NCBI GenBank assembly: GCA_950295325.1
Contig: OX485807.1
Location: 22,043,666 to 22,107,665 of the forward strand
Source of the DNA: Polytrichum commune
Lineage: Eukaryota > Streptophyta > Polytrichopsida > Polytrichales > Polytrichaceae
DNA length: 64,000 bases
Direction of reading: 5' to 3'
Shown here piece after piece: positions 5,733 through 58,655 of the stretch. Positions within the stretch are counted from its first letter, which is position 1. Every line of letters starts with the position of its first letter. The notes below the pieces were generated by a model. That model did not search any database. It was given only the letters and a program-made list of their open reading frames with translations, and was not told the origin of the DNA. A program made the position numbers and the translations under genes.

Positions 5733-7483
5733 ATGTATCAAATGTTTGTGATTGTGGTACTATCAAGTACCACGTTTTTGAAACCCATGAGATCTACAAG
5801 GAGATTTGAAGAGAAGCACATGGACTTGTGACCCACGAAGCTATTGAAGTATAATTCCTATGTTGTTTACCACCTAAGGCAAATCATTGTAGTTGATTCT
5901 TCCCCGCTAGAATGCAAGAGGTTGTGTGTTAGATGATGTCTACAACTTTCAGGAGGTAGTATGACTTTTCCTTTAGTAGTAGTAATAGTAGCAATATTAC
6001 TACTGGTAGTTATTTTTTATTTAAAAAATATATTGGCTCTGTTATTATATTGATACAAGCTCACATCTTTAGTTTTTTTATTTTTTCGCATGTTCGACCA
6101 CCTCATTTCCTTCTAAGTTCTCATTTATTTCCCACACCTCAAGGCTTTGCCCAGACATAAACTAGCCAACTAACTTATGTCACTAATGACTATCAAGACA
6201 CTCGGAACTCTCCCGGTCCTCTATTTCTTCTACAAAGAAGACATGAAATTCGTGAGGAGGCTTTACAAATGATGGTTGATTCAAGATTATTTAACCACTT
6301 GGAGCCCTCCCAATATTATGTTGATATAGTAGAAGCATATAATATAAGATTTATGTATATTTATGGACTATAGTTTATTTCTTGATTTACTACGCATTGT
6401 TTGATGCAATGCACAACTCGTGTTTGAGATTTTATGAATAAAGTTGTATTTCTCAAATCCCATTTTTACTCTCCACATGTGCTTCATTTTATATTTTTTT
6501 GTAGAGTGTATTTTATTTCCAGGGGTATAGTTGAGGAGACCTCTCGATGCACTTGTAGATTAAACTTGTTATCATAATCTATTGTGAAATTTGTAGTATA
6601 CTTGACTACGTCTCTTCTTGTATTAATACTTGTTCTTTTACTTGATGCCAAAAATAATTTGGGCATTGGGAGTGCCCCCAGTCTCATTATTGTTTACTAT
6701 AATGTTTTAGGACTTTTATAATCAATTTCCTAAATAAAATTTTAAATAATAATCATCATTTAATTAAAATAAATATTTACACTCCTTAATTGTCTATATC
6801 TAGTTAAATACTTGTTGTAATGGTAATCCAATAATCCAAATTTAAACTCCAATCATTATAGAGATGTATGCATTCATAATTTTCTTTCTTTCTTTCTAAT
6901 ATACTGATAATCTACATGAAAAATTTGAGAACAAAAACATTATTGAATTAATTCAAAAAAAATCAATGAACTCGATAGTGCCATATTGAATTCTAAATAT
7001 ATCATGATTAAATGCAAGTTGACAATCTAGGAGCAACACATCCATTATATAAAGTAAAATGCAATCTTTCTTTTCAATGGCTACCTACATGCATGGGGAG
7101 TGCACTTAGTGGTAAAAGTTAGGTATAACGTGTGTGCGTCACCTACAAATTAATACCCCTATATATGGTTTTATTTCATTAAAAAAATGACACACACACA
7201 CATACATACATACACACAACAACAACAAAGAAAATCCTAATGTATGTGTGCATGTTCAAAGTAAATTAAAAAAATAAAAGCCTAACATACATATACAATG
7301 AAAAACATGGTCTAAAAAATAAATCTGGATTTTTTTTCACTTTAAAAGTATTTATTTATCGTTGATGAAATCATTAAACAAATTTTCATCCATAAGATGT
7401 AACTCCTACAAGGTTTTTTCCTACTACAAAAGTTATTGTAGCTAGTGCAATTATAGTTTCTAAGTCTATTATGATATAATCTG
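5733..7483. other. Spacer with no recognised gene
   Basis: AT-rich. It contains a short (GTA/TAG)n stretch near 5970-6010 and a CA-rich simple repeat near 7190-7225. A 67-codon minus-strand frame at 6484-6687 resembles nothing I know. Confidence 0.5.
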
Positions 7484-11495: not shown

Positions 11496-11632
11496 TCATT
11501 TGCTCCAAGAAATTGCAAGGCGTAGGTAGTCAAGTCACTCTTGTTTTTTCTGGATTTGGCCGTTGTTGATTCCGAGTCTACGAACAACACCAACAAGGGT
11601 GTAACCATAGAATAGAATTGAGTATTGGAGGC

Positions 11633-14032
11633 ATGGCATCATCATCATCAGCGGTGAATGGCAAGTTGCCCTACATAACCCACCGCATGGTGAAGACAAA
11701 TGGCATCAACATGCACATAGTGGAGCAAGGCACAGGGCCAATGCTACTCCTCCTGCATGGATTCCCAGAGTTTTGGTACTCGTGGCGCTTCCAAATCCCC
11801 GTGTTGGCCGATGCGGGTTATCATGTGGTGGCACCAGACCTTCGTGGCTATGGCGACACGGACGCACCCAGAAGTGCGGAGCTCTACACAAGCTTCCACC
11901 TGGTGGGCGACCTGGTGGGCCTTGTGGATGCTGTTGCTGGAGAGAATCAGAATCACAAGGGCAAGGGCGTCTTCATTGTTGCACATGACTGGGGCGCCGT
12001 GGTGGCATGGGATTTTTGCCTCTTTCGCCCAGATCTTGTGAAAGCCATGGTCATTCTCAGTGTGCCCTTCTTTCCTCGCTCACCTCAAGGCAGTGCCATC
12101 AAGGCTTACCGGGAGACGCTGGGCGAAGGATTTTACATGTGCAGGTCTGTTTGTTTCTGCTCTCTATTCTCATATGTTTGTTGATGTAAAGTGGGTGTTA
12201 TTCAGTTAGTTTTTCTTGTTCTCCATCTCCTATTGATCAGATTTATGTCTTGAAATTTGTGTTCTATAAGCAAATCTATAATGAGCCATCAACAAAAATC
12301 GGATTGAAAATTGGACCTTGCATAAGTTAGTTATGGTTTTTGGAAGTGCATGTGTGTTGATACCTTAAATGAATGCATGTAGTCCCCTCAATTGTCTTGA
12401 CTATTGAGTGTGGAGTAGTCAATAAAATGTGAAGATGTAGTCCAATCTCTTTCAAACATGCAACTTTATGGTGTCTATTCTTAGATCCAGACCTAACCAC
12501 ACACCATAAAATGGTAGGTGGCTAATTAAGAAAAGCAACCAAATAACACCTTCATACCTTGTCAGATGTGGTGAGATGGGTTAATTTTTTCATTCATTTT
12601 TTATAAGCGGGGTCGTGGAAGTGGAGAAACAACAATCTCCTGTTGTTTGACGAACTGTTTGTTGGTTCAATTAACCATGTGAACTTCACATTAACAGGAA
12701 GCAGCAACAATGTCACTTGCAGGTAACCTTGAACTGACACGTGGATAATAACAATCCGCTGTTGTTCCTCAGTTCATTTAACCATTTGAACTTCACAGGG
12801 GGAGGAGGGAGCGTCACTTGCAAGTGAATTAGGGAGTACTTCAATTTTGTCATGATATAACGCAGATCCTTCTTTTGCTAAATCTTTTGTGGCATGGGAG
12901 AGGACACTAGTGCTAATATATCAAGTTTTGAAACGGGTCATTTCTGTATCATGGTTATTGTCGAATATCTCTCAATTACACTTAAGGCTACTGACCAATA
13001 CACCTCAAGTAGTTAACCTAATCAGATCATTAGTCAAGAAGGAGCTCCTCCCTCAGAAGTTTCATGCCATCTTTCCTATCTGCTTTCCAAGCCAGGCTTT
13101 TGGTGTGGCTTGGGCAGAAGCAGGTACAGTCGAAATACCTTTGATGCGCTCTTTCAAACAACTGAACATAGTTCTTTATATTAGAATGACTTATTTCTCT
13201 ACTGGGTCTTATTGGAAATTGAAAGAGGATTTTGACAATTGAATCCTGCATGAATTTTCAAAGTGTTGTCTATAAGTGTAACTCAATAATTGACCCTACA
13301 CTCACAGCCTTCATGTACATATTTGTAATCAATGTCTAGGTTAAGGATTGCTTTTTGGTCAAAATATAGGGATCGCTTTTGGGCCAAGGTTTTCCTACCA
13401 CATGTTGCAGAAGCAAATTCAGTACTCACACACAATGGGTGTGCTGATTCCACATTACGATTCTACAGAGAGAGTTTTACTCTTTTGACACAAGTTTGTT
13501 GAATGTATGCTATTTTTGCAGATTTCAGAAACCTGGCCGGGCAGAACGAGATTTTGCTCGAATAGGATCAACAGCCACACTTTCAAAGCTGCTCTTTCCA
13601 GCAAAGACCAACATGATTGCTCCAAAGGATAAAGAATTGATGGATGCCATCCCCATGCCAAAGAAACTACCTCCATGGATTACCGACACTGACCTACGAT
13701 TCTATGCAGAGGTTTACGAAAAATCTGGGTTCACAGGCTCTTTAAATCTTTACCGTGCCATGGACCGGTCATGGGAGCTCAAAGCGCCCTGGACAAACGT
13801 TGGGGTGCAAACACCGGCTTTATTTGTTGCAGGTGACAAGGACCTGGTCATGGGTTTTCCAGGTGTCAAGGCACATGTTAGCAAGAAGATGAAGTCATTT
13901 GTGCCGAATTTGAAGGAGGTTGTGTTTCTGAAAGGTGGGCATTTTATACAACAAGAACAGCCTGCAAGAATAAATGAGTTGATCACCGCCTATTTCCAGG
14001 AGCAAACTCTTGCAACGAGCTCCAAACTGTAA
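11633..14032 (+). CDS. Soluble epoxide hydrolase (alpha/beta-hydrolase), 2 exons, 340 aa
   Basis: Hydrolyses epoxides to vicinal diols through an alkyl-enzyme ester. In plants the family acts on fatty-acid epoxides in the cytosol or peroxisome, in cutin synthesis and defence. Exon 1 is 11633-12144 and exon 2 is 13522-14032, joined within an Arg codon by a GT-AG intron of 1,377 bp, giving 340 aa, close to plant sEHs. Visible landmarks: oxyanion-hole HGFPEFWYSW, the nucleophile Asp119 in HDWGA, lid tyrosines Tyr168 (FYMCR) and Tyr248 (LNLYR), acid Asp278 (GDKDLV) and base His311 (GGHF). Every catalytic residue is present, so the gene looks functional. ATG at 11633 is chosen; an in-frame TTG five codons earlier is not a eukaryotic start. 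No signal peptide is obvious. The intron contains a dispersed repeat also seen at 22-23 kb. Assignment rests on motif recognition, not on a search. Confidence 0.93.
12355..12965. repeat. Dispersed repeat inside the epoxide hydrolase intron
   Basis: Shares blocks in the same order and strand with 22030-23290: TAGTCCAATCTCTTT, TTTATGGTGT, a TAGGTG-CAATTAA-like block, TTAACCATGTGA, ACGTGGATAA or a variant, and ATCAAGTTTTGAA. The copy at 22 kb has several hundred extra bases in the middle. No frame or terminal structure identifies the family. Confidence 0.6.
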
Positions 14033-23290: not shown

Positions 23291-24861
23291 TCCCTTGAAA
23301 TTTGATATTCTTGAGATGCAGGTTTTGTCCTTCAAGCCACATCTGTATCTGGTTTCACATTACCTACCAGTTTTTATATAACACGCAATGAGAAGTTCAA
23401 GTGCTTACTCGAGTCTGGCACTAGTAACTGTCAAAATCTCAAAATATTATATTGGAAGTCAAGAACTCATTCAAGGCTAAGTGGGCAAGCATGTCCATAG
23501 TTTGATAAATTCCTACACTACTCAAAAGTTGTGTATGAAGTTTGTTCTTGCTTTATCTTCCCAAGGCCTTGGTGTGATTTCGTTGTTATTCAGGCAAGAA
23601 GCTCATTGATGAAGGGAGCAGTACAAGGTCTACCCTTGCAATCGATCAGTAAAGTTGCAATCAATTGATATGCCAGATTCAGAGCAATGATTCTTGTGAT
23701 TAAAAATGAAGCTCCCTTTAAAAGTTTCATTTTCTACACACTAAGATTTGACGCACACAACACATGGCTTGGATATTGCATTACAGATACCTTGTGCCCA
23801 GCTTCTATAAATCAAAAACTACAATAGTTCCTAGGGTAACAAAGATAGTTATTACCGAACATCCAGAAGGAAAGCATTGAAGCTTGAATAATTGTTGGAG
23901 CAAATTGAGACTTGTCAAGTTTACTGCAAAACCCACTTTCACCAGACTCTTGAGAATAATGTCATGACATGATGGCAGGAAAGGTGCTCTGTTCGTCCTA
24001 AACATCTTGCCAATTACCCTTAAGCTATTAGATTTGCATTGAATTTCAAAAGATAGCACTGAAGGGATTTGTTGACAAAAGGAATATGGAATGTTCATAT
24101 GTTTGAGATCAAGAAGCGTGTTCATAGTTCTTGAAGTGTCCTTGTGTCCAAGGCCCAATTTCTCCTCCATGTCCTCCTGCCTTTGTCTTGTTAGCTCCCA
24201 TTAAGTTACGCCTCACACACTTATTTCCTAGCAGATTTCTTAGTGAATTTGTAGGCAGAGGTACTGTCGCCTCCAGCATCATTAACTCCCACTGTGCATA
24301 AAAGCCAGGTGCAAGGAACCTCATCAATGCAAGAATATGGGGCGATATCCAGCTGTTCTCCGTCATAATATACAGATATGATGTTATTGACATGAATTCC
24401 AGAAATGCATATCAGTGACAAAATCTTTGAGATATAGTACTTATTTGTTAATTCCATCAGAGTATTGATCAGGAGTTGGTATCTTTGCATACCATACTTA
24501 CCATGTTCGGTAACCTGTTGGTGCATGTTTGGAGTTGGTGTGGAGGTTCAGATCAATAAAATCTTATATAAGAACACAAAATTCCGGTCACTCATATTCA
24601 ACAAGGGCGAGCACATTAGGAAAAATTGAAATGATACAGTATAACACCTGGAGAAATTAAAAAGCTTCCATAGTGCAACGAAGGAATACGATAACCACTA
24701 CTACATCCACAACAGTAGACAGCCTGACGAGGTAACACGACAAACCCTACAACATGCGTGATCAGTATTCCTCGGTATTAACGTCCCAAGGGAGCTAGCA
24801 TAGGTTAGAACTTATACCCAATTTTCCATGACATCCATAGTTCCTTCATATGCAGACATAT
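23291..24861. other. Spacer beside the SHMT arm A
   Basis: Two minus-strand frames of 101 and 121 codons (24526-24221 and 24170-23805) are open but not recognised. Otherwise there is nothing to report. Confidence 0.4.
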
Positions 24862-25134
24862 ACGACCTAACAACACTATTCGTGACACACAACTAAAATG
24901 TGCCACATTGAACTAACCACTTCGGATGCAATCAAAAAATGCCAACACGTTGACATTCAAATTATTACCATCGTCAAAAGAATGTACCTACCACTACAAA
25001 ATTGTTGCCAAGTCATCAGTGTTCCAAGAAGACGTATTACAGGGTGCGCAAACAGGCAATAATTCCTCTTTGCAATTTTCTAACTACTTACCTTTCGACC
25101 ACTCACGTTTCTACTTCATATCATCATTAACACC

Positions 25135-27413
25135 CTATTCCTTGCCGTACTTCAAGTTGTTCACGTCAAATCCCGGCATGTCAAAAGACATCGAGAACTT
25201 CTCTACATCACCCTTCAAGGCAGCAATTTCTTCATTGTTTTCTACCCCCTTGTTGAACTCCTTCAGAAGCTTGCCCCTCTCCTTTTGAACCTTCAAAGTG
25301 ATGTTCACAGCACGCTCCAGAAATTCGGCGATCTGCTCGAAGTCCTTCTCCTTCAATCCACGTGAAGTCATTGCCGGTGCACCTGTCACCACGACCCACA
25401 CACACAACCTCGTATCAGCTGCGCGAAGACAATTCATCACCAAACCTCCGTGATTACTTCTCCCAACCTTACCATAACCCTCCTTACAATCCGAAAATCT
25501 CACCTTGCGATTCGACCAAACATGGATTTCCCCCGATTACAAACGGACAAACAATTCAAGCACATTCATTAACTACCTTTTCCCACTGTCTCGTTGACTG
25601 CCACCTACTGTCTACAGCTGGCTCTTGCCTTGTTTCTACGGGCAAACTCCACGAATTAAGCTGCCTACAACTTACTCTTCACTCAAATTGCCACTGAAAA
25701 AGACTGCACCGCAAACAACCAACGGAAAGGGAACCGTACCGATGCGAACACCTCCTGGGGCTAGTGCACTACTGTCACCGAACACGGCATTCTTGTTCAA
25801 AGTGATGTGAGCCAGTTCGCACACCTTCTCCACCTTGTTACCTGAGTACATCATAACACCACTACCATCACCGGAAATGTCTTCGTGTAAAAACATCCAT
25901 GACAAATCACCAAACAAGCCCGTAAGTTCACATCAATTGAAGGCAAAAGGCTGCCAATGCCTACCGGTAAGACCCAGAGGACGCAAATCCCACAGAACTA
26001 GATGGTTCTCGGTGCCGTCGGTCACCATCTTGTAACCCTTCTTCATCAAAGCGTTTCCGATGGCGACGGCGTTCGCCTTCACCTGCTTCGCGTAAGCCTT
26101 GAATTGTGGCGTGTCCACTTGCTTCAGTGCCACGGCAAGGGCGGCAATTTGATGGTTGTGAGGTCCGCCCTGCAACGACGGGAACACGGAGAAATTGATC
26201 TTGTCCTCGTAATCGTACACGGCGTCTTCCTTCTGACCCTTCTTCGGGGGCTTCGGACCCTTCCTGTAGAAGATCATGCCCGCACGTGGTCCTCTCAGAC
26301 TCTTGTGGGTCGTCGTCGTCACCACATCGCAGTACTCGAAGGGTTGGTTTGCTTCCTGCACTACGCATATCCGACCAACTTGTCAGCCTTTTCTCTTTGA
26401 TTCAACAACGCCTCCACTGTTGCCACAAATCAAGCCGCCTACGGAAAATCGGTATGCTGAAAGACGCCAATTACCTGGGCGGCCACGAGGCCGCTGATGT
26501 GAGCCATGTCGCACATCAGCAAGGCTCCACACTTGTCGGCGATGGTCCTCATCCTTGCAAAGTCCCAGTCCCTGGGGTACGCACTTCCACCCGAAATGAT
26601 CATCTTGGGACGGAAGTCCAACGCCTTCTCCTCCAGCTTGTCGTAGTCGATGAACCCGGTGTCGTAGTTCACCTTGTAAGGCAGACTCTCAAAGAAGATC
26701 GAGGTCGCCGAGATCTTCTTTCCATTGGAAGTGTAGTACCCGTGGGTCAAGTGACCGCCTGCATTGGTCGAACCAGTTACAATGTGCTAACACTTCCGGC
26801 GTACAACCAACCTACCACATTCCACACATGTCTCTACATCCCTTTCCGCGACCGAGATTAACTACGCAGGCATACAAATCCAACGGAAATCCCTACATTT
26901 CTTTACCTTATCGTACCTTAGGTATCCAAGCATACCGATTCAAATACATCTCTACGCCACTCTACATGATTCAGCTTAGGCGTGCAACCATCGAGGTTCA
27001 CCTGAGGGCAGATCGAGACCCATGATGCGGTCATGGGGCTGAAGAAGGGCTGTGTACACTGCGAAGTTCGCAGGAGACCCCGAGTATGGCTGCACATTCA
27101 CACCCCACTTCTCACCGTCCAAGTGGAACGCCTTCAGCGCTCTGGCCTTGCACAAGTTCTCGATCTGGTCGATGAACTCGTTGCCTCCGTAGTACCGTGC
27201 TCCAGGAAGCCCTTCCGAGTACTTGTTGGTCAATGCGGACCCCAATGCCTCGATCACAGCCTGAGAAGTGAAATTCTCGGACGCGATCAGCTCGATACCC
27301 CTGCATTGCCTCACCTTCTCGTGCTCGATCAGGTTGTAAATCTCCTCGTCCGCTACATCCAGGGGCGTATTTCCCCACGAAGCCACGCTTCCCTCTGGAG
27401 CCTCTGAACCCAT
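25135..27413 (-). CDS. SHMT: Serine hydroxymethyltransferase, cytosolic type, copy A, 5 exons, 478 aa
   Basis: PLP enzyme that interconverts serine plus tetrahydrofolate with glycine plus methylene-tetrahydrofolate, the main source of one-carbon units. Exons: 27413-27002, 26758-26475, 26355-25965, 25841-25740 and 25382-25135, joined by short GT-AG introns; total 478 aa, normal for plant cytosolic SHMT. Landmarks: [37 protein letters not shown], the PLP lysine Lys250 in [14 protein letters not shown], and [20 protein letters not shown]. There is no transit peptide: the protein starts [18 protein letters not shown], hence cytosolic. Exons are GC-richer than the surrounding spacer. Both SHMT copies encode the same protein as far as I can read, and neither has a break. 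Its 5' end faces the 26-kb spacer that separates it from copy B. Confidence 0.97.
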
Positions 27414-28359
27414 GTTGCCTGTTCACAGGCCGCACACATTCCATCAGCAGGTGTTGTCACAAGAAACTATGACACAAAGAGTCTGCCTGCATAAAGATTG
27501 CGCTAAAATCCGAATCCCGTCATCCACCATGGAACCAGAGCATTACAAACCGTTCGCATCTACCAAGAAAGGTTGAGGGACAGCCGTTTTATCAAAGATG
27601 CCAATTATCGAACAAAGCGCTTCTAAGTGATGGGAAGGACTTCGTGCTCGTGCGCATTCAGTGGAAACACGAGCCTAGACATTACAAAAATCCGGTTCAA
27701 AGGAAAGACCCAGGAAAGCTATACAGCATCAAATATAGCAGCAGTGCATCACTATAGCTTTACGATCCTATTTAACAAAAGGATGTAAAAAATCATTCCT
27801 CTCTTGGCGCAGATCCTTAGACAGCCCACCTTGGAGCAGAGAGGGATGGCCTCTAACATAGATCTCTGCCCAGAAGTGATTTCTGTCTCTAGAAACCAAA
27901 AGAATGTTCACATCAGGACAAGTCACCGCTGTCTTCACACATAAACAAACTCTTGCACATCTCACATGAAGCTCAAATCCAAGATCTCTCACGACCTACC
28001 ATCCGGAAGAGTGGCCAAAGATGCCGTGTCCATGCAAGCCCACCACCAAGTAAGGCAGAGAGGGTTATGTGAAGTCCACAACGCAAGTTTGCACAAGAAA
28101 CTAGTTCCCATTAAACCTACGTTCCCAACCCAAACCTCTAGCAAAAAAGAAGACATCCACATGAGAGCCGTTCATCAATCCCAAAGCCCTTCAAAGGAAG
28201 CCCACATGCTGCTAAAAAAACACAGAGCAGCTCCATCGCAAACTAAAAGGACCCACATCAACAACACCAACATGGTAAGTGCGGCCAATCGCAATAAACC
28301 CCAATCCTTTGATGGGCATGGATTTCAATCTTACCCATCACATTTGCGAACCAAATCCC

Positions 28360-28745
28360 TTAACATTTGAAGACAACCAAACCGGCATTTGTGAGAGAAC
28401 CCAAAACCCCACTCCTTCCTCTTCTTCTTCTTCCCCTTCTTCTCACGACAACATCACTGAGTTGTCTACACCAAAACCCCAAGCAAAGCAACCGTGCACT
28501 TACCAAATAACACGGCAAAGGAAGATGCGTCCGCTGGAGCAAAAGCAACAATGGCGGTGACCCCAGTGAGATCGAGTGGCAGCAGATCTGTGAAAAGGCT
28601 CGTAATACTTCAAGGTTGTGGATGTTGTAGACGCGGATGGGACGACAATCGTGCAACCCGGCACATACCCGCTCTGATCTGGGGTATCACCTCACTTTCA
28701 ATCTTTCCATTCCTGGCCCTGCTTTCCATTTACTCACGGCGATAG
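28360..28745 (+). pseudogene. Degraded counterpart of a small divergent ORF upstream of SHMT copy A
   Basis: The ATG at 28551 corresponds to the ATG at 54983 in arm B (both start ATGGCGG.GACCCC). Relative to arm B the reading frame here is changed by single-base losses, one within the first six codons and another about 50 bases on, after which a stop follows quickly. It therefore no longer encodes the arm-B peptide. The family is not recognised. It may never have been a protein-coding exon. Confidence 0.35.
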
Positions 28746-35839: not shown

Positions 35840-35845
35840 ATAGAG

Positions 35846-35905
35846 GATGGTGAAGAAGAAGAAGAAGAACTCCGGTCCCGCCTAGGGGGCTGGAGTGAAT
35901 AAAGT
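35846..35905 (-). terminator. LINE 3'-terminal hairpin and (TTC)n tail
   Basis: On the minus strand: CAGACACTTTATTCACTCCA, a C/G-rich stem-loop closing with GGACCGGAG, then (TTC)5. The same ending occurs at 10397-10485 and 51595-51654, where the tail is (TCTA)n or (ATCT)n. LINEs that lack poly(A) often use such a 3' structure for template recognition by their RT. Confidence 0.6.
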
Positions 35906-36073
35906 GTCTGTTCGTAGGACATCCGTGGCCATACCCCAAGGTAGTGGCGTTGGATGTAATACTACACCCTTTGCAGGGAGTAGGCACTATGTTAGTAACT
36001 AGTGATTTTGCCGTTTAACCGGTTGGGGGGGGGGGGGGGAAGTGTGTTGGGTTCATAAATTTTATTGTTGTTT

Positions 36074-37216
36074 TTAATTATGATTTTGTAAGTTTGTGAT
36101 GGGTTGTCTATTTTCTATCCGTCTTTTATGGATTAATATTGAGTGTGCGTATTGTATGGAGATTATATTAATTTGTTTGAATGTGCTCCTAATTTGTGAT
36201 GTAGGGAGTTTAAGCTTTGTCTTGAGTTCATTCATAGAGGGTATGTGAGTTGTGGCTCTGGCCCCTGATGCTAATACAATAAGTGGGGCTACGTTCCAAC
36301 CTCTTGCTATAATATTATTGATGAGTGGTTGATATTTTGTAATTTTCCGTTCTCTTGTTTCAGCAGAGAATCTGTCATTGCAGTATGTAAACTCAATGAA
36401 TTGTATAGTAATTGTGGGTGTAGGTGCTTCTGGTGGTGGGGAGTCATATGGGTGGCCTAAGAGGCATATTATGTCGGGTTTGAGCCTAGCGTTGCAGTGG
36501 CATCTTTGGGTGTCGCATGTGCATGGCAGTAACCATGTTGGTACTGTGTTTTCTTGGGGTAGTTCATTGTATGTACCGGCATTCATAAGTATGTAATGTC
36601 TTGTTACTTTGTTTGAGACGAGAAGTTTGCGTATTTCCCATACCGCTTTGTTATGTCTATTTGTTATGAGCACATGGATGTGTTGTTGTTTACATTTTAG
36701 GAGTACATGTAGCCATGTGTCTGCTTCTAAGGAGTTACAAATAGGGCATGTATGGGATGGATATGCGTTTCTACCAAAGAAGAGTTGTTTCCGAGCATGT
36801 CCCATATATTGTCCGGTTCGGAATTTTATTAGGCATGTTTTTTGCCTATCTATGATGACTGGGTTATTCCAAAAATCATTTGATAATGTTTTGTCTATAT
36901 CTTTGTTGTCTAGCCATTTGTGTAATTGGTGTGTTTGGGTTGCTATGAGGGCTAGGTTATGTTTTTTGTCATATTTAATGATGTATTTGCCAAGGTGTCT
37001 AATGGGGCCTTTGTATGGTGTTTCTTGCATTGAGTGCCACCAACCTTTTTGTAGGCAGTATGGCGTGGGGTGGGCATGTTCGTATGTTGCTAAGGCATCT
37101 CTATGGTCTAATTCACATCTCATTTTGGCTAATTTTTCCGCTTGTTCGTTGCCATTTATATTCGTGTGGGCTTTGACTTTATGTAGTGTGGTGGTTTGTG
37201 TACGGGATTGTAACAT
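36074..37216 (-). CDS. LINE C-terminal ORF: end of RNase H, CCHC finger, RLE-like domain (380 codons)
   Basis: Longest open stretch of the LINE. Residues about 10-35 are the last RNase H motif (KVKAHTNINGNEQAEKLAK; the usual Asp of the AD pair is Glu here). Residues about 155-180 hold CPICNSLEADTWLHVLLKC, a CxxC-H-C finger like that preceding the nuclease of R2-type LINEs. Residues about 235-310 hold KPDIICLLGH, then IEFTYCND, then KITKYQPLINNIIARGW, which reads as PD...E...K of a restriction-like fold. The same tail is partly preserved in LINE copy 2. The nuclease call is by motif only. The frame is part of a larger polyprotein interrupted upstream. Confidence 0.7.
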   Translation of the reverse strand: MLQSRTQTTTLHKVKAHTNINGNEQAEKLAKMRCELDHRDALATYEHAHPTPYCLQKGWWHSMQETPYKGPIRHLGKYIIKYDKKHNLALIATQTHQLHKWLDNKDIDKTLSNDFWNNPVIIDRQKTCLIKFRTGQYMGHARKQLFFGRNAYPSHTCPICNSLEADTWLHVLLKCKQQHIHVLITNRHNKAVWEIRKLLVSNKVTRHYILMNAGTYNELPQENTVPTWLLPCTCDTQRCHCNARLKPDIICLLGHPYDSPPPEAPTPTITIQFIEFTYCNDRFSAETRERKITKYQPLINNIIARGWNVAPLIVLASGARATTHIPSMNELKTKLKLPTSQIRSTFKQINIISIQYAHSILIHKRRIENRQPITNLQNHN

Positions 37217-39918
37217 CCTAATTATAGATTCAAGTATCGCCTTGTTTGGATGACTATTGTGTGAGGTTGGGTGTTTCGTTTGTGTGTTTAGGAGGTATAA
37301 TACATTAAGACAGTATGTGAAAATATGTGCGGGTTCATTTCGATATATATGTAGTAGTGAGGAGGCATAGAGTGTGATGGATAGCCATCAGTTCTGCTCG
37401 TAGTATATTTTGGAGTCCTGGTAGTCTTTATGCAATTTTAAGATTTTTAAAAGGGTTATATATGCCGTATCCTGCCTTTTCTCATTTCCAATGTTCTTCG
37501 GTTATTGCTTTGGGTGGTATAAATGATCCATCGGTATAGTAGCAAAATTGTGGTGGGTATTTGGGGGGTAGGCATATGTCATGATTCGTGATTGGTGGAA
37601 TATTGGTAGTTTGGGTCGGGGGTGGGAGGGGCGGATATGTACGTTGAGACCAGTTCTTACTACGGTTTACTGATGTGTTTATTGGTGTGGGTGGTGCGGT
37701 TGTGCTAAATATAGTGGGTTTTTGTAAAGATTTGCCAATATTGTGCATGCGACCTACATATCATGTAGGACCAACGGGCGTGGTTTTGTGGTGTATACAT
37801 AATATTCTAATGTCATGATTTTTTGTTCGGGGTTCGATTCGTTGTTCCGGTGGTATTGTGGGTTCATCATATGTAATGGTGTTTGCTTTAAAGTGTGTGA
37901 TGACGTGTGAGTCCGGGAAAGGGCCTTCGTGGGGGTTGATGTTATGATACCAATTTGGATCAGTTGTTATAAGTATTGTGATTGTGTCTGGGTTATTTTG
38001 GGCTGCAAGTCTTGCCTAGTGGAAGGCTTGTTGGGTGTCATTTTATATATGTGGATGGGCGTACCCATTGCCTGTCCATTTGTGTTGGAATGCCGTTCCT
38101 ATTGACCCAAAAACTTTGTCTCGGGAGAATGTGGAGGCAAATTGTCTTAGCTTGGTAGGGCATGTGACAGGTGATGAGAAGTATGAGTGTGTGATGTGGA
38201 AGGAGTCAATGATATGGTCAAGGATGTCGCTTGGGAGTGTATATTGCGAGAGTTTGAGGGGGTCATTTTTGGGCAGTTTATATTTATATCGTTGGTATAG
38301 CCATACAACTTCTTTTTCTAATGATTGTGTGGGGGGTTCTAGATCATGGGGTTTGCTTAATGCATTTTGATATTGTTCCTATAGCCATTTCAATCTTTGT
38401 TCGGGGATGGTAATTAAGTGGCGGCCGTCGTTGTCGTAGATGTGTGATACCCCATGTTGGCTTTGAATGGTATTTTGAATGCATGCTATGTCATTGTCTG
38501 GGTTACATTCGTTGACGTGGATATGACACAAGGGTATGACTTGTGGCGGGGGGATGTATCCGGTGTCTCTTAGTTGTTCTTCATGGAAGTGTAGTTGTAG
38601 GATGTTGGTGAAGTGTTGGTTTTTTTTGTGAGTGTAATATTGTGTTAGGAGTAGAATGTTATGGTTTATGGTGTTTTGATTGTTCCATGGGAACAAGTCT
38701 TTTTGGGGGAGCCATTTGTTATATATGGTTTCGTTTGGGAGCATCCATTAGCATAGGTAAGATGTGTACTTTTTTGTAATTTTTGTTGTTATCTTTGTAA
38801 GTATGGGGGCGATCTTTTAGTATAGAATGTATTGGATATTGTATGTGATTGTTTTGTATATGTAAGGGTGGTTTTGGGTATTCCGGTGGTGGGGGTGTGG
38901 GAGGATGTGCATTGTGCCTATTTGTTCTTGTATTTATGTGGTGGTTTTGTATTTTGTATATGTTTTTAAGGGTGTTTGGTAAGGTATGTGTCGGACAATT
39001 GTTGTGGCATGGGTTATGACACGGTGGTTCGTAAAAGAGAACTCGAGCTTGGTCTAGGGCGGCTTGGATTGTTTTAGTGGGTGTGTCATAGTAATATTTG
39101 AATTCATCGTTTGTCATTAAGTGTATGCCATTGGGATGTGTTATGTGCTTGAGTTCGGTTATGTTGTGAAGTATGACTTTATATAGGTATTTAAGGGAGG
39201 TTGTGAGGGTTAGTGTTGGAGTAGTTTATGCTTGATGCATCCATTGTGTTTATAGTGGTGTGGGAAGGAGGGGAAATTTTTCAAGTTTCCTCCTTAGGTA
39301 GATGCCACTGGTTGTTTTGAGTAGGAATAATGTACGTGTGATTGGTGATCTAATACAATCTTGGCGGGATATACGTGGTAGGTTGAGTGATCCGCCATGT
39401 TTGACAAGTATGTGTTTAGTTAATTCATTATATATTTTTCCTAGTCGTCATTTGTCATTGAGGGCGTTAATAAGTTGTTCATCTATACATGTGAGGTATG
39501 TTTTTTTTTAGTGAGAAAGTTTTTGTGCCAAACATATCTTGTGGTAGTTGTGTAACGACATTGGACATGCATTTCGGTAGTCCACATATGGTTTTGTGTA
39601 GAACGGTTATTCTTTTATCTAGTTTTCTAATGGCGGGGAGTGAGTATGGAACGGCATAGAAACTATAGGCGATGCTAGCTCGTATGACCGTTTTAACCAT
39701 TTGTATTTTTTATTTTATAGTGGCTGGACATGCGATTAGTAGCTTGCATTGTTTGATTAATTTAGTGGTTGTTATGTGTGTTTAAGTTTTCCATTGTAAC
39801 GATGAGACTAGATTGATTCCGAGATAAACATATGGCTCGTGTTGGCTTATGATAGGTATGGGTTGATTTCTGAAATTAATATTGGTGTTTTTAATATGTG
39901 TTTTAAAGGCCTTGGGGT

Positions 39919-40767
39919 TTATTTTTGTTTTATTGGAGCAACCCGTGATTGCACATTTCGGGATTCACAAGATTTGTCGAGTTTGTTTAGTTGATGTTGG
40001 ATGGATGTCAGATTATTAGATATTGCGGCTAGGTCATCTACGTAAGCTGCAGAGCATATTTTTGTATTGGAGGTATTAAAGGTATGTCCATTGTTTTCTC
40101 TTTGTAACCATCTAAGGAGTGGCTCAAAAAATATGATAAAGAGATATGGGCTCAATGTGTCCCCTTGTATAGTGCCTCTTTGTATGGGTATTGGTTGTGT
40201 TTTATTAAAGTGTTCTCCAGTAACTGTGGTAGTGGATTGTGAGTAGATGTTGCCTACTAGGGCTACAACATCTTGTGGGTAGCCTAAGTCTTTCATAATG
40301 GCGAGAAGTCTGGCGGGGTCAATAGAGTCAAAGGTATTTTTAAAATCAATGTATAGTATATAGATGTCTTGAGTGGTAAATTTTGCATCTTCTAATACTG
40401 CTATGAGGGTTTGTAGTTGCCGGGCGGTGCATCGTTCAGCTCGGAAGCCTTCTTGGCTGTCGTGTAGGATTTGGTATTTTTCACCATATGTAGATAGCAT
40501 GTTTGTGAGTGTGCTAATAAATAACTTGTAGATTGTATTGGCGAGTGCGATTGGTCTATGGTTGGTTAGGTGGTGGGGGTTTCCCTTTTTGTATAGGAGT
40601 ATTGTGAGGCTTGTTTTCCATGATGTGGGAATTTGTTTTTGTTTGTAGTAGTGGGTAAAAAATAATAGAAGAAGTTTATGGAATCTTGGTGGCATATTTT
40701 TCAATATGGCGTTAGGTATTTTGTCGGGTCCAAGGGTTTTCCCATTGGCTAGGTTTTTAAGGCACAT
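39919..40767 (-). CDS. LINE reverse transcriptase domain (partial, 282 codons)
   Basis: Contains the RT blocks in order: NGKTLGPDKIPNAILKN, WKTSLTILLYKKGNPHHLTN then HRPIALANTIYKL, GFRAERCTARQLQTL, ILYIDFKNTFDSID, GTIQGDTLSPYLFIIFFEPL and the catalytic AAYVDDLAA. The YVDD variant and the P-D-x-I-P spacing are typical of non-LTR RTs. The frame stops just after the palm, and the thumb continues in another frame at 39700. It is non-functional as it stands. Confidence 0.93.
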   Translation of the reverse strand: MCLKNLANGKTLGPDKIPNAILKNMPPRFHKLLLLFFTHYYKQKQIPTSWKTSLTILLYKKGNPHHLTNHRPIALANTIYKLFISTLTNMLSTYGEKYQILHDSQEGFRAERCTARQLQTLIAVLEDAKFTTQDIYILYIDFKNTFDSIDPARLLAIMKDLGYPQDVVALVGNIYSQSTTTVTGEHFNKTQPIPIQRGTIQGDTLSPYLFIIFFEPLLRWLQRENNGHTFNTSNTKICSAAYVDDLAAISNNLTSIQHQLNKLDKSCESRNVQSRVAPIKQK

Positions 40768-41642
40768 GTCGTATATTTTTCGGTCGAAGTATGTGTATAT
40801 AAAGGTTAATGCTTCGTCTCTTTTCTCGAGAGTGTATCCGTTTAAGCCATGCCACGGGTATTGTCTAACTCCGCATATGCATTGTTGTGTATGGTCGGGT
40901 TGATAGTAGCAAGTTGGGACAGTTGGCCTGTTGCTAGTTGATTGTTGGACATGTATTTATTGTGCGATGTCTGTTGGGCTTGTGAGGATGTTATTGAATC
41001 TATTTATGAGGCAATTGAATGGAGGGGTGTCGGTATTCTTAAAGACTTTTCTGTTTATGTTTTTTGGGCTTTTGTCATAAAGTTGCTGATATTTAGATAT
41101 GGTTTTTTTAATTTATTTGGTGGTGTAGTCGGTTGTGATTTTGTGGGCTTTGTTTTTAGCTTCTTTGGCGATTTTTGCTAATTCATCTATCCATGAGTCG
41201 TGCGGGAGAGAAGGATTTGGTGGTGGGGGTATGATAGCGTGAGTGTGGGTGTTTATTTCTTGAGTAATAATGGGGTGGGTGCGCCAATTCGGATTGTTTT
41301 TATTGTATATATTATTTTCCGGATGAGGTGGTAGGTAGATAAGTGTGATTTCCAGATTTTTTTGGGTTTCTTGAGGAGATAACCCCTTTGGTTGGCAATT
41401 CTGTTTGGTAGTATGGGGATGGGTGGAGCGCTGCATGTTTCTAGGACAGTGGTGGTGATAGAGAATGGTGATTATAATTTGACATTTGCAAAGGTGACTA
41501 ACCCAAATATCATCAAGGTGGTAACTAAATTATCATATATTAGTCATCGACTAAATTACAACGACTGTACCACGGATGAGGAGCCAAAAATAGGTGTCCA
41601 ATTAAGGAAGCTAACCGAATTAGCCTCATCTACCCTACATAT

Positions 41643-42810
41643 GGGGGGATGTTAAACTCCCCCCCCCCGCCACCAAATGTTTTGGGGGCGGTAGATTCGG
41701 GCAAGACCAACTGCCCGTCCAAAAAATCCAGATTTTTGGGACCCTACCAAAAATTGGTGTCCTCCCAACCTCGAAAAAAACATTGCCCTTGCATTCTTGA
41801 AGGCCACTTATCCACAAATCCCATATTGAGTGCACTTCAACTTCAAGGTCCAAAATCCAATATATATGGTCACTTCCATTCAATAAATAAGCAATTGACT
41901 GGGATTTCATTTTCAAAGTGAAACCTCCAAAAAACATGTAATTAACTTGAAAGACAAAAATATTACAAAACCCTCACTAGCACTGGGGTTATAATTTTTG
42001 TTACTTATCATTGAAAGAGTCTTTGTCATTCTAAAATGGAACTAAATTTAGTGATTTTTTAAAAATAAATTAAGTATTATAGTCTAGTTAAAACCTTCTA
42101 CTTTCATAAAGTAGTCGTATGCATTTATACCAATTAAGTGTGATTGAATGTAATTAAGTCTAATCAATTCTGATTAATTTTAATTCAAGTAAATATAATT
42201 TTAAATATTTATGAATAATTAATTTGGTAAGCATACTTTCTGATTTAATTGGGCTTAATTAGGATAAATCAAAATTCATTAGACTTGTTACATTCAATCA
42301 CACTTAATTAGTTTAAATGCATATGACTACTTTGTGAAAGTAGAAGGTATTAATTAGACTATAATATTTAACATATTAAAAATAAATCATTAATTTTAGT
42401 TCCATTTTAGAATGACAAAGACCCTTTTATTGATAAGTAACAAAAGTTATAACCTTAGTGGTAATGAGGATTTTGTGATATTTTTGACTTCCAAGTTAAT
42501 TACATGTTTTTTTGCCGGTTTCAATTTGAAAATGAAATCCCAATCAATTGCGTATTTATTCAATGGAAGTGAATATATATATATATATATATATGATTTT
42601 GGACCTTGAAGCTGAAGTGCACTCAATATGGGATTTGTAGATAAGTGGCCTTCCAAAATGCAAGGACAATGGCTTTTTCGAAGTCGGGTAGGCAACAATT
42701 TCCCATCGGATCCAAAAAATCTAGATTTTTTGGACAGGCGGTTGCCCCTGCTTGAATCTACCTCCTCCGAAAAGTTCGTGAGGAGGGGGGGGGGGGTTTA
42801 ACATCCCCCC
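41643..42810. mobile_element. Foldback element, 1.17 kb, near-complete inverted repeat
   Basis: The left arm (41643 to about 42150) is the imperfect reverse complement of the right arm (about 42300-42810), roughly 80% paired, with a small AT-rich centre. Both ends begin GGGGGGATGTTAAAC followed by a C-run. The right arm has an expanded (AT)n at about 42573-42594 where the left arm has only a few units. There are no coding frames of note. The target duplication is unclear. It could be a non-autonomous foldback DNA transposon. If transcribed, it would make a hairpin of about 500 bp, a natural siRNA source. Confidence 0.85.
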
Positions 42811-43984
42811 TTACGTACATTCATGAAGCTTTGGCCTGGTGCGAACTACTTTTGGGGTCTCGAGTCTCATCGAGAAAACACCTGTGGAAATTGTGTGAGA
42901 AAATGAAGACTTGATTCATGGGCCCTGATTGAGAGTGAGTTTGAGTTATTCACGACGGAATATGAGTTATCTACAATTTGTAAATTGAATTATTGTAGTT
43001 CAGTAGTATGTGCTCTCCAATTATTTTTGTGTTCCCAAGGTATTTGCAAGTGCTGTAGCATCGAAAGCTGCCTAGATTTGCATACCGACCATAAGCATAC
43101 ATGGTGGAGCATGGAATCCCTGTGGTGCTTTACCCCCAATAATTCCACGTTTCCATGATGCTAATTTGTCTTCTTTCTGCTCTGAGGAGAGTTGTCAGGT
43201 ATTTAAGGTGCTGGGTAAATATGGTAGGTGGCAATTCTGATCAGGCTTTTGGTACAGAGCCTGTAATCATGGCCTGGTGTAGTTGTCAACCTGCCACGGA
43301 CTCCTCAAATAGATACCCATAAGTGTAAAACTTCATAAACCTGTCAGTAAGAAGCTCACACAGTCCAAACTAATGTGGTAAGTTTTCCTTTTTGGAGGAT
43401 CAAATGAGATCTACCCATGAAAGGAGATAAAATACACTCCAGAGGGTAAGCCAAGTACCAAATAAACTAGACTCCCTTCACCTCAAAGACTTTCTCAACT
43501 ATGAATGCCACACATGTTCAAAGCAACCCTTGACTCCACCCCAATGCAACATTATTGATTTTTAGCACACCTGAAATCAGACTCAGCATTAAAATTGGCA
43601 GGTGGCTGACTATCCCAATCCCCAAAGATAGCATATTATGCCACTTTCGCTCTTACATGTAGTTGAAATGAGACCCACAAAGTATTGGAGTCTCCCTTCC
43701 ACAACTCCATTGGAGATAGGCTTCCTTCCCTATTTCAGAATGTCATGCTAAGCAATCTTGCACTTTCTTCCAACTTGGTCATCAAGACCCAAGTTGTGTC
43801 CCCCAGGTTAATGTGGCATATTATACCAGCCTACTCTGCTCAATCCTGGATCCTTCGCTTTCAAATAAGTTAGTCAGACCTTTTCACACCTAAATCATAT
43901 GCATACAGAAGTTCTGAACGTAGCGAAAGATGATACCAATGAATAAAACCCACATTCGTTGTCTTGCTTCAGCCAATATGCATT
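42811..43984. other. 3' flank of the HflX gene
   Basis: Non-coding. Likely includes the HflX 3' untranslated region near 43.9 kb. Nothing else is recognised. Confidence 0.45.
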
Positions 43985-54757: not shown

Positions 54758-54983
54758 TAGCTTGGCGCTCTGAGTAAATTGAGAGCAGGGGCAGGAATGG
54801 AAGATCCAACGTGGGGTGGTAATCCGGAGCTGTAGTGGGTACGAGACACGTGTACGATCCGGATATACGGGGGTTGCAGAATTGTCCCGTCCTACAGGCG
54901 TCTACAACACCCACAAACCTCGAAGTTCTCAAAGCCTGCTCACAGATCCGGTGCCATTCGATCTCACTCGGGGTCGCCGCCAT
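54744..54983 (-). CDS. Small divergent ORF upstream of SHMT copy B (79 aa, hypothetical)
   Basis: Opens with ATG at 54983 (MAATPSEIEWHRICEQALRT) and reads GVVDACRTGQFCNPRIS further on, ending inside the neighbouring MITE end. It lies head to head with SHMT and could be the first exon of a divergently transcribed gene cut off by the duplication breakpoint. The matching place in arm A has lost the frame. No family is recognised, and it may be chance. Confidence 0.35.
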   Translation of the reverse strand: MAATPSEIEWHRICEQALRTSRFVGVVDACRTGQFCNPRISGSYTCLVPTTAPDYHPTLDLPFLPLLSIYSERQATLNR

Positions 54984-57900
54984 TGTTGCTGTTGCTCTAG
55001 TGGACTCATTTTCCTTCAACCGAGTTATTTGGTATGTGTACAGTTGCTCTGCCTTGGATTTTGGTGTAGACAATTCAGGTGTGCAGTTGTGGGAAGGAGA
55101 TGATGAAGAAGACGGAGTGGGGTTTTGGGTTCTCTCTCAAGTGTTGGTTTGGTTGTTTTCAGATTGTGGTGTGAAAGATTGAAACCAATGCCCTTCAAAG
55201 GATTGGGGTTTAGTGTGACGGGGTGCACTTAACATGCGTGCGTCGACGATGTTGTTGTTGCGGGTCCTTTTAGTTTGCGATGGGGTTGCTCTGTTTTTTA
55301 GCAGCACGTGGACTTCCGTGAAGGGCCTTGGGAGTGCTTGATGGCTCTCGTGTGGATGTCTTTTTCTTCGCTGGAGGTTTGGGTTGGGAACGTGGGTTTA
55401 ATGGGAACTAGTTTCTTGCACGAACTTGCATTGTGGACTTGACATAACCCTCTTTCCCTTACTTAGTGGTGGGCTTGCACGGACACGGTATCTTTGGCCG
55501 CTCTTCCGGATGGTAGGCCGTGAGAGATCTTGGATTTGCGCTTCATGCGAGACGTGTAATGTGAGGTGTGCAAGAGTATGTTTATGTGTGAAGACAGCGG
55601 TGACGTGTCCAGAACATTCTTTTGGTTTTTAGAGAAGGAAATCACTTCTGGGCAGAGATCTGTGTTAGAGGCCATCCCTCTTTGCTCCAAGGTGGGCTGT
55701 CCAAGGATCTGCGCCAAAAGAGGAATAAATATTTACATCCTTACGTTAAATAGGATCGTAAAGCTATAGTGATGCACTGCTGCTACATCTGATGCTTTAC
55801 AGTTTTCCTTTGCACCGGATTTTTGTAATGTCTAGGCTCGTGTTTCCACTGAATGCGCACGAGCACGAAGTCCTTCCCATCACTTAGAAGCGCTTTGTTC
55901 GATAATTGGCATCTTTGATAAAACGGCTGTCCCTCAACCTTTCTTGGTAGATGCGAACGGTTTGTAATGCTCTGGTTCCATGGTGGATGACGGGATTCGG
56001 ATTTTAGCGCAATCTTTATGCAGGCAGACTCTTTGTGTCATAGTTTCTTGTGACAACACCTGCTGATGGAATGTGTGCGGCCTGTGAACAGGCAACATGG
56101 GTTCAGAGGCTCCAGAGGGAAGCGTGGCTTCGTGGGGAAATACGCCCCTGGATGTAGCGGACGAGGAGATTTACAACCTGATCGAGCACGAGAAGGTGAG
56201 GCAATGCAGGGGTATCGAGCTGATCGCGTCCGAGAATTTCACTTCTCAGGCTGTGATCGAGGCATTGGGGTCCGCATTGACCAACAAGTACTCGGAAGGG
56301 CTTCCTGGAGCACGGTACTACGGAGGCAACGAGTTCATCGACCAGATCGAGAACTTGTGCAAGGCCAGAGCGCTGAAGGCGTTCCACTTGGACGGTGAGA
56401 AGTGGGGTGTGAATGTGCAGCCATACTCGGGGTCTCCTGCGAACTTCGCAGTGTACACAGCCCTTCTTCAGCCCCATGACCGCATCATGGGTCTCGATCT
56501 GCCCTCAGGTGAACCTCGATGGTTGCACGCCTAAGCTGAATCATGTAGAGTGGCGTAGAGATGTATTTGAATCGGTATGCTTGGATACCTAAGGTACGAT
56601 AAGGTAAAGAAATGTAGGGATTTCCGTTGGATTTGTATGCCTGCGTAGTTAATCTCGGTCGCGGAAAGGGATGTAGAGACATGTGTGGAATGTGGTAGGT
56701 TGGTTGTACGCCGGAAGTGTTAGCACATTGTAACTGGTTCGACCAATGCAGGCGGTCACTTGACCCACGGGTACTACACTTCCAATGGAAAGAAGATCTC
56801 GGCGACCTCGATCTTCTTTGAGAGTCTGCCTTACAAGGTGAACTACGACACCGGGTTCATCGACTACGACAAGCTGGAGGAGAAGGCGTTGGACTTCCGT
56901 CCCAAGATGATCATTTCGGGTGGAAGTGCGTACCCCAGGGACTGGGACTTTGCAAGGATGAGGACCATCGCCGACAAGTGTGGAGCCTTGCTGATGTGCG
57001 ACATGGCTCACATCAGCGGCCTCGTGGCCGCCCAGGTAATTGGCGTCTTTCAGCATACCGATTTTCCGTAGGCGGCTTGATTTGTGGCAACAGTGGAGGC
57101 GTTGTTGAATCAAAGAGAAAAGGCTGACAAGTTGGTCGGATATGCGTAGTGCAGGAAGCAAACCAACCCTTCGAGTACTGCGATGTGGTGACGACGACGA
57201 CCCACAAGAGTCTGAGAGGACCACGTGCGGGCATGATCTTCTACAGGAAGGGTCCGAAGCCCCCGAAGAAGGGTCAGAAGGAAGACGCCGTGTACGATTA
57301 CGAGGACAAGATCAATTTCTCCGTGTTCCCGTCGTTGCAGGGCGGACCTCACAACCATCAAATTGCCGCCCTTGCCGTGGCACTGAAGCAAGTGGACACG
57401 CCACAATTCAAGGCTTACGCGAAGCAGGTGAAGGCGAACGCCGTCGCCATCGGAAACGCTTTGATGAAGAAGGGTTACAAGATGGTGACCGACGGCACCG
57501 AGAACCATCTAGTTCTGTGGGATTTGCGTCCTCTGGGTCTTACCGGTAGGCATTGGCAGCCTTTTGCCTTCAATTGATGTGAACTTACGGGCTTGTTTGG
57601 TGATTTGTCATGGATGTTTTTACACGAAGACATTTCCGGTGATGGTAGTGGTGTTATGATGTACTCAGGTAACAAGGTGGAGAAGGTGTGCGAACTGGCT
57701 CACATCACTTTGAACAAGAATGCCGTGTTCGGTGACAGTAGTGCACTAGCCCCAGGAGGTGTTCGCATCGGTACGGTTCCCTTTCCGTTGGTTGTTTGCG
57801 GTGCAGTCTTTTTCAGTGGCAATTTGAGTGAAGAGTAAGTTGTAGGCAGCTTAATTCGTGGAGTTTGCCCGTAGAAACAAGGCAAGAGCCAGCTGTAGAC

Positions 57901-58655
57901 AGTAGGTGGCAGTCAACGAGACAGTGGGAAAAGGTAATTAACGAACGTGCTTGAATTGTTTGTCCGTTTGTAATCGGGGGGAATCCATGTTTGGTCGAAT
58001 CGCAAGGTGAGATTTTCGGATTGTAAGGAGGGTTATGGTAAGGTTGGGAGAAGTAATCACGGAGGTTTGGTGATGAATCGTTATCGCGCAGCTGATACGA
58101 GGTTGTGTGTGTGGGTCGTGGTGACAGGTGCACCGGCAATGACTTCACGTGGATTGAAGGAGAAGGACTTCGAGCAGATCGCCGAATTTCTGGAGCGTGC
58201 TGTGAACATCACTTTGAAGGTTCAAAAGGAGAGGGGCAAGCTTCTGAAGGAGTTCAACAAGGGAGTAGAAAACAACGAAGAAATTGCTGCCTTGAAGGGT
58301 GATGTAGAGAAGTTCTCGATGTCTTTTGACATGCCGGGATTTGACGTGAACAACTTGAAGTACGGCAAGGAATAGGGTGTTAATGATGATATGAAGTAGA
58401 AACGTGAGTGGTCGAAAGGTAAGTAGTTAGAAAATTGCAAAGAGGAATTATTGCCTGTTTGCGCACCCTGTAATACGTCTTCTTGGAACACTGATGACTT
58501 GGCAACAATTTTGTAGTGGTAGGTACATTCTTTTGACGATGGTAATAATTTGAATGTCAACGTGTTGGCATTTTTTGATTGCATCCGAAGTGGTTAGTTC
58601 AATGTGGCACATTTTAGTTGTGTGTCACAAATAGTGTTGTTAGGTTGTATGTTTT
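54757..58655 (+). repeat. Arm B of the 3.9-kb inverted duplication carrying SHMT
   Basis: Reverse complement of 24862-28755. Identity is near complete and indel-free from about 55815 to 58655, but lower and gapped from 54757 to 55810. The arms face each other across about 26 kb. The outer boundary near 58655 is abrupt. Confidence 0.92.
56097..58375 (+). CDS. SHMT: Serine hydroxymethyltransferase, cytosolic type, copy B, 5 exons, 478 aa
   Basis: Exons 56097-56508, 56752-57035, 57155-57545, 57669-57770 and 58128-58375; 1,437 coding bases, 478 aa, stop TAG at 58373. It has the same exon structure and protein as copy A. PLP-binding Lys250 sits in THKSLRGPR, and substrate-site blocks RYYGGNE and [10 protein letters not shown] are present. 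The fourth donor is taken at ATCG|GTACGG because it alone restores the conserved [11 protein letters not shown]. Intron 4 is the main place where the two copies differ. The 5' flank differs clearly from that of copy A, so the two genes could be expressed differently. It reads away from the 26-kb spacer, as does copy A. Intact. Confidence 0.97.

Follow-up and report, generated by a model that had tools for sequence, protein, structure and literature searches.

A dead LINE copy in Polytrichum commune and its relatives, a family with probable Dualen/RandI-type architecture

The window analysed here, a 64,000-nucleotide stretch of the Polytrichum commune assembly GCA_950295325.1 (contig OX485807.1, here C5, positions 22043666-22107665), contains a copy of a long interspersed nuclear element (LINE) at 35854-41459 on the minus strand. 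The assembly comprises 408 Mb in 64 contigs, of which C1-C7 measure 42-78 Mb each. Comparison with related loci of the same genome indicated that the copy is most likely a dead, 5'-truncated member of an autonomous family of retrotransposons without long terminal repeats (non-LTR), with an architecture of the Dualen/RandI type, in a non-flowering land plant. A single open reading frame (ORF) of a full member would encode one or more 2A-like motifs, an apurinic-type endonuclease, a reverse transcriptase (RT), a PCIF1-like domain, RNase H, a CCHC finger and an R2-type nuclease. The features of the window copy, by ascending coordinate, are as follows.

35840-35853, minus strand: 3' copy of the target-site duplication, TCACCATCCTCTAT, 13/14 identical to its 5' counterpart, a level that none of 300 shuffles reached
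35854-35869, minus strand: 3' tail of (TTC)n type, from the alignment to a relative and a tail survey of relatives
35870-36073, minus strand: 3' untranslated region (UTR) of the short type, lacking about 338 bp of that of relative L030 (homology skips from reference base 6404 to 6743)
36101-36691, minus strand: signature of a likely R2-type restriction-like endonuclease (RLE), RHN, KPD, IEFT and K..KY, from the C-terminal alignment and the R2 comparison
36692-36748, minus strand: CCHC finger CPIC...H....C, from the C-terminal family alignment, collinear with the R2 finger
37118-37285, minus strand: second half of RNase H (PF00075, 3.5e-4), compared with L030
37482-37560 (outer borders approximate), minus strand: first half of RNase H in a separate frame, with YYTDGS at about 37524-37541, from the ORF survey; intact in relatives
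37761-38015, minus strand: C-terminal part of the PCIF1-like region in a separate frame, read against the family alignment of that region
38073-38342, minus strand: PCIF1-like domain PF12237 (E 1.7e-10); the ORF ends in YAHPHI, with HPH at the NPPF position
39952-40587, minus strand: reverse transcriptase RVT_1 (E 4.5e-25) with YVDD, which is YADD in aligned relatives
41113-41459, minus strand: truncated 5' start, corresponding to the region between the apurinic-type endonuclease and the RT, from the alignment to L030 and L052
41458-41471 (about), minus strand: 5' copy of the target-site duplication, TCACCATTCTCTAT, from the direct-repeat search

We aligned the copy with a relative represented by two overlapping loci of one element, L030 and L052 (L numbers denote family relatives from the same genome). 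Homology ran from 41459 to 35856 with a single gap and began at base 997 of the relative, so the borders given in a preliminary description of this DNA (35854-41457) were nearly exact, with the direct repeats just outside them. The ORF survey showed that the motifs are spread over several frames in the order RT, linker, split RNase H, CPIC-H-C finger and RHN...KPD...IEFTY...KITKY. The RT with YVDD lies in ORF 39919-40956 and YYTDGS in ORF 37482-37760, while ORF 36074-37387 holds HTNINGNEQAEKLA, CPICNSLEADTWLHVLLKC, KPDII, IEFTYCND and KITKYQPL. Every motif named in the preliminary description (YVDD, YYTDGS, CPIC-H-C, KPDII, IEFTYCND and KITKYQPL) was found on the minus strand, and the unusually long linker, put there at about 2 kb, measured about 2.4 kb from the RT to YYTDGS. 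That account did not include the 5' truncation, the frameshifts or the PCIF1-like domain within the linker. The RNase H half in ORF 36074-37387 scored 21.2 bits, under the Pfam cut-off of 25.8, because the domain is split over two frames; in this half FTYCLNV has Y for the D of L030, and EKLA stands for its DKLA. The window copy is dead, since it is truncated and frameshifted and a catalytic D of its RNase H is replaced by Y. Its lack of an apurinic-type endonuclease is explained by the truncation at 41459.

Hundreds of relatives are present in the genome. The scored counts for the C-terminal ORF and the RT are lower bounds: at least 96 matches for the former (the best 96 of 6101 candidates) and at least 117 for the latter (the best 117 of 1885). 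A codon pattern for KPDI-x-C matched the genome 353 times, against 8 times for its reversed control, and the apurinic-type endonuclease region gave 131 scored matches. The longest open frames in relatives measure 2924 aa (C4:34921788; L069 and L072), 2919, 2663 and, in three cases, 2625 aa. Three relatives (C4:34925499, C1:51768997 and C5:46493646) have essentially identical C-termini, which suggests recent activity of the family. In public viral contigs, searched with C-terminal, PCIF1-like and RT profiles, and in public genome contigs, searched with the RT profile, we found no confirmed relative. Because Dualen has been reported from green algae, we considered whether the elements could stem from contaminating DNA, for example of an alga associated with the plant; this is scarcely credible, as copies occur on all seven large contigs, C1-C7, which also bear genes of the dirigent family, presumably a land-plant marker (41 matches over the cut-off on these contigs; 42 listed).

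The uninterrupted relatives display the domain order that the window copy has lost. L052 contains an unbroken stretch of 1333 aa with both an endonuclease match (PF14529, 2.9e-7, above the cut-off) and RVT_1, so the N-terminal apurinic-type endonuclease for which longer copies were to be checked is present. L030 carries PF12237 (2.2e-9) and RNase H (5.9e-15), and L069 has RT, PCIF1-like domain and RNase H within one frame in Pfam; RNase H (PF00075) downstream of the RT was intact in relatives, at 5.9e-15 and 3e-12. In L069, ITWNASSLN, IQETKL, CGDFNRD and NSDHYPI, which we take to be apurinic-type endonuclease motifs, begin at positions 436-677 and are followed by YADD at 1234, GYAHPH at 1899, YYTDGS at 2072, CPIC at 2334, RPDIL at 2423 and NKYKPL at 2470.

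We then examined the linker between RT and RNase H. In the window, ORF 38043-38378 matches the Pfam model PF12237, 'PCIF1_WW', and the model scores above its cut-off in the window and in three relatives, reaching 1.6e-13 over model positions 12-144 in L073. A profile of seven relatives searched against the PDB retrieved PCIF1 structures 6irx (E 0.0077) and 6irv (E 0.15). Although the Pfam name refers to the WW domain, the matched residues of the PCIF1 chains are 287-408, presumably the helical-methyltransferase part and not the WW domain. The similarity to this cap m6Am methyltransferase (PCIF1/CAPAM) includes FGSxG and the site of NPPF, the catalytic motif of PCIF1 methyltransferases. In the 6irv alignment, 'eanppf' stands opposite 'yahpht', that is, NPPF opposite HPHT; the H and P at this site are invariant in the seven aligned relatives (7/7), and L073 reads HPP. 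With NPPF so replaced, catalysis is unlikely, and the domain differs from PCIF1/CAPAM in being probably inactive. Among the 150 best-scored of 697 candidate matches, no host PCIF1 donor gene was separable.

Could the PCIF1-like segment match Pfam by accident, or derive from a single insertion of host sequence, and so be foreign to the element? The match covers the PF12237 model incompletely, and the profile search of the PDB gave a weak match, yet the region has at least 150 genome matches (the best 150 of the 697 candidates), many of them in RT-bearing open frames of 1000-2924 aa, and the cut-off is passed in several loci. The ratio of nonsynonymous to synonymous substitution rates (dN/dS) was low where pairs could be measured: in one pair of relatives it was 0.054 for the RT, 0.051 for RNase H, 0.11 for the PCIF1-like domain and 0.10 for the finger-RLE part, as rough values at dS 0.8-1.4. 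These low ratios suggest that the PCIF1-like domain is kept by purifying selection. A chance or one-off origin is therefore very improbable and already largely refuted.

To place the C-terminus, we retrieved R2 chains of known structure by a probe search and aligned their sequences with the family. The R2 module reads CCHC finger, RHN, KPD, DV(T/Q), K..(K/H)Y, and the family reads CPIC, H....C, RHN, KPD, EFT, K..KY. L1 and I group LINEs carry an apurinic-type endonuclease upstream of the RT, and we know of none with a restriction-like nuclease. Among the cited papers, which are used here for the parts available to us, PMC4640811 places RNase H in the I group and in plant L1. The family might instead belong to the I or L1 group, with its apurinic-type endonuclease, RT, RNase H and terminal CCHC finger, and its final 200 residues might be another DNA- or RNA-binding domain with a chance likeness to the R2 nuclease; the weak statistics of the RLE profile and this occurrence of RNase H speak for it. 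We consider it unlikely, for three reasons. The pattern RHN, KPD, (D/E)hT, K..KY, written post hoc, is found in 14 of 15 family rows, with its elements ordered as in R2, and 200000 shuffles of the window row never produced it. Comparison of the family with the R2 nuclease module by hhalign gave a collinear alignment at E 0.006-0.007 (0.0063 in the first run), and on rerun the score of 22.97 was reached by none of 200 column-shuffled profiles (maximum 21.04); controls with the profile reversed or with other regions of the element scored 11-14. Finally, the RT of L052 scored 74-95 bits against R2 chains of the PDB and 55-57 bits against LINE-1, including 8c8j (57 bits), which we take to be LINE-1. 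This RT comparison covered R2 and LINE-1, with I, CR1, RTE and Dualen references outside it, so the scores exclude little beyond L1.

Several results weigh against the Dualen/RandI-type assignment. The hhalign probability of the R2 nuclease match was just 5-6%, and with three divergent rows included the alignment covered only the finger-RHN part (30 columns, E 0.0095). The family nuclease profile retrieved no R2 chain from the PDB at E<=10, and the C-terminal nuclease region has no Pfam match. With an R2 hidden Markov model (HMM), the two best relatives reached E 0.028 and 0.054 and the window row 5.6, and 1 of 2000 shuffled decoys came out at E 0.17, better than most relatives. A structure predicted for the window C-terminus from the single sequence had a predicted local distance difference test (pLDDT) score of 35 and was discarded. 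In addition, the endonuclease match to Pfam that passes in L052 is absent in L069, several dN/dS comparisons of more distant pairs were saturated, and the comparison included no algal Dualen sequence, the likeness to Dualen being one of architecture. Of the restriction-like C-terminus proposed in the preliminary description, the collinearity with R2 and the excess over shuffled profiles stand, and the statistics are moderate; homology to the R2 nuclease is likely, not proven. The Dualen/RandI-like architecture put forward there is supported in its main point, as the family combines RNase H with an apurinic-type endonuclease and this likely second one.

2A sequences occur in other LINEs. In L069 we found LLKGGDIKPNPGP upstream of the endonuclease, and a DNA pattern for G-D-x-x-x-N-P-G-P matched the genome 425 times, compared with once for its reversed control. 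Among the 100 of these matches that were listed, 94 lie on C1, and many read GDIExNPGP. A 2A-like motif lies within 2.5 kb upstream of 27 of the 33 listed endonuclease regions on C1; in 23 of these 27 it sits at 625-670 bp, in 19 coordinate arithmetic, which took no account of intervening stops, puts it in the frame of the endonuclease, and before 7 there are two or three motifs. Likewise, 23 of 26 listed RT regions on C1 have such a motif within 4.5 kb, and a listed element lies downstream of 42 of the 94 motif sites on that contig. The PCIF1-like linker domain and the 2A-like motifs are the new parts of the finding.

The ends of the copies were also compared. A (TTC)n tail follows ACCGGAGT or ACCGGAGTTC in 26 of the 29 related loci L010-L038, with none found in the other three, and the tail of L069 is (TATC)n; in L010-L038 the DNA beyond the tails differs, by eye, from copy to copy. 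Six 5'-truncated copies with both ends were searched for direct repeats, L018 having been dropped as no tail was found. Repeats were present in 4 of the 6: 14 bp with one mismatch in the window copy, 14 bp in L013, 14 bp in L038 and 10 bp in L023, where the repeat lies at a distance upstream of the point at which the alignment starts. Shuffles as good numbered 0, 0, 0 and 1 of 300, respectively; in L010 and L020 no repeats were found. Direct repeats and differing flanks are in keeping with target-primed reverse transcription at variable sites. As a separate observation, many relatives among L011-L038 have a longer 3' UTR with GAATCGAACCCGG, the reverse complement of a tRNA B box, which the window copy lacks. 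It looks as if an antisense tRNA-derived segment had been built into this longer form; no tRNA was reported by ARAGORN (L030 and the window) or by Rfam at gathering scores (the window, L011, L030 and L069).

Other features of the window and the assembly were noted. Near the 5' end of the LINE copy, 41636-42817 forms a foldback-like inverted repeat with arms of about 590 bp that are 82% identical. A 3.8-kb stretch occurs twice, at 24860-28659 and 54871-58650, in opposite orientation and 95% identical, with GC content of about 0.51 in its middle part; it holds one open frame of 220 aa, for which Pfam gave no match. A Copia LTR element remnant (Retrotran_gag_2, Pol_BBD) lies at 2771-3926 on the minus strand, and an alpha/beta hydrolase gene, presumably epoxide-hydrolase-like, lies in at least two pieces at 11570-14032 on the plus strand. 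Two further relatives, L067 (C3:870266-874264) and L068 (C24:7479-11477), have equal match scores and frames, so contig C24, 37 kb long, is probably an unplaced copy of the corresponding stretch of C3. An open rbcL (best PDB match 9chz, Rubisco large subunit, 1079.8 bits) lies on contig C8 together with two PF00148 genes, presumably chlB and chlN, which to our knowledge flowering plants have lost. These genes and the dirigent matches are indirect markers that point to a non-flowering land plant, and the number and size of the chromosomes might suit a moss with n=7.

We compared the family with known systems. R2 elements lack an apurinic-type endonuclease and RNase H and are specific to ribosomal DNA. 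The family resembles R2 (PDB 9nl2, 9dou and 8gh6) in its best RT match and in the CCHC-RHN-KPD-(D/E)-K..KY module, and differs in having RNase H and an apurinic-type endonuclease and in flanks that vary, by eye, from copy to copy. From L1 it differs in that the LINE-1 RT scores well below R2 here and in that its tail is not poly(A). Dualen/RandI was reportedly described by Kojima and Fujiwara in 2005. PMC4640811, in the part available, names Dualen as the group with both endonucleases, lists RNase H for it, and reads it as a link between old R2-like LINEs and apurinic-endonuclease LINEs. RandI of green algae has repeat tails other than poly(A) in 8/8 families (PMC3747384, Table 3). The likeness comprises an apurinic-type endonuclease, a likely restriction-like one, RNase H and the tails. 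Dualen/RandI is given as found only in green algae in PMC4438587 (Table 3); further reports, in the excerpts seen, concern Chlamydomonas relatives (PMC8226300), cryptophytes (PMC12747079) and, by RepeatModeler, the apicomplexan Besnoitia (PMC9714946), whereas the present family resides in a land plant. No land plant was named as a Dualen host in the available text of the open-licence literature searched, a search with Repbase outside its scope. In three conifer papers 'RandI' refers to a person, not to the retrotransposon. The PCIF1-like domain and the 2A-like motifs are seen here, and algal Dualen is known to us from descriptions only. Methyltransferase-fold domains also occur in SymbioLINE-Dnmt, SymbioDIRS-Dnmt3 and KnitGypsy-Dnmt3, according to the accessible part of PMC5890265; those are cytosine DNA methyltransferases (Dam in other DIRS elements), whereas the domain here is of PCIF1 type, its active site is altered and it lies between RT and RNase H. 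Among the matches listed, no title of an open-licence paper named a PCIF1-retrotransposon fusion.

A possible mechanism can be drawn from these parts. Ribosomes would skip at the 2A sites and thereby separate an N-terminal protein from the chain that bears the enzymes. The initial nick would come from one of the endonucleases, and the RT would then copy the RNA from its repeat tail by target-primed reverse transcription. Target binding, and perhaps second-strand cleavage, would fall to the CCHC-RLE module, and RNase H would remove the template. As another residue stands in place of its catalytic asparagine, the PCIF1-like domain would no longer methylate and may bind RNA or a capped 5' end. 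A more specific version, in which a land-plant branch of Dualen captured a PCIF1-type methyltransferase that is now a dead reader of the cap or 5' end of the element's own RNA, while 2A sites split the ORF into several proteins, seems doubtful at present.

If true, this version would describe an element that has two endonucleases and carries its own module for RNA selection. The PCIF1-like domain suggests a kind of domain capture not met in the accessible parts of the open-licence literature searched. The family is abundant, with near-identical members and long open frames, and would make the role of two endonucleases testable in a multicellular host.

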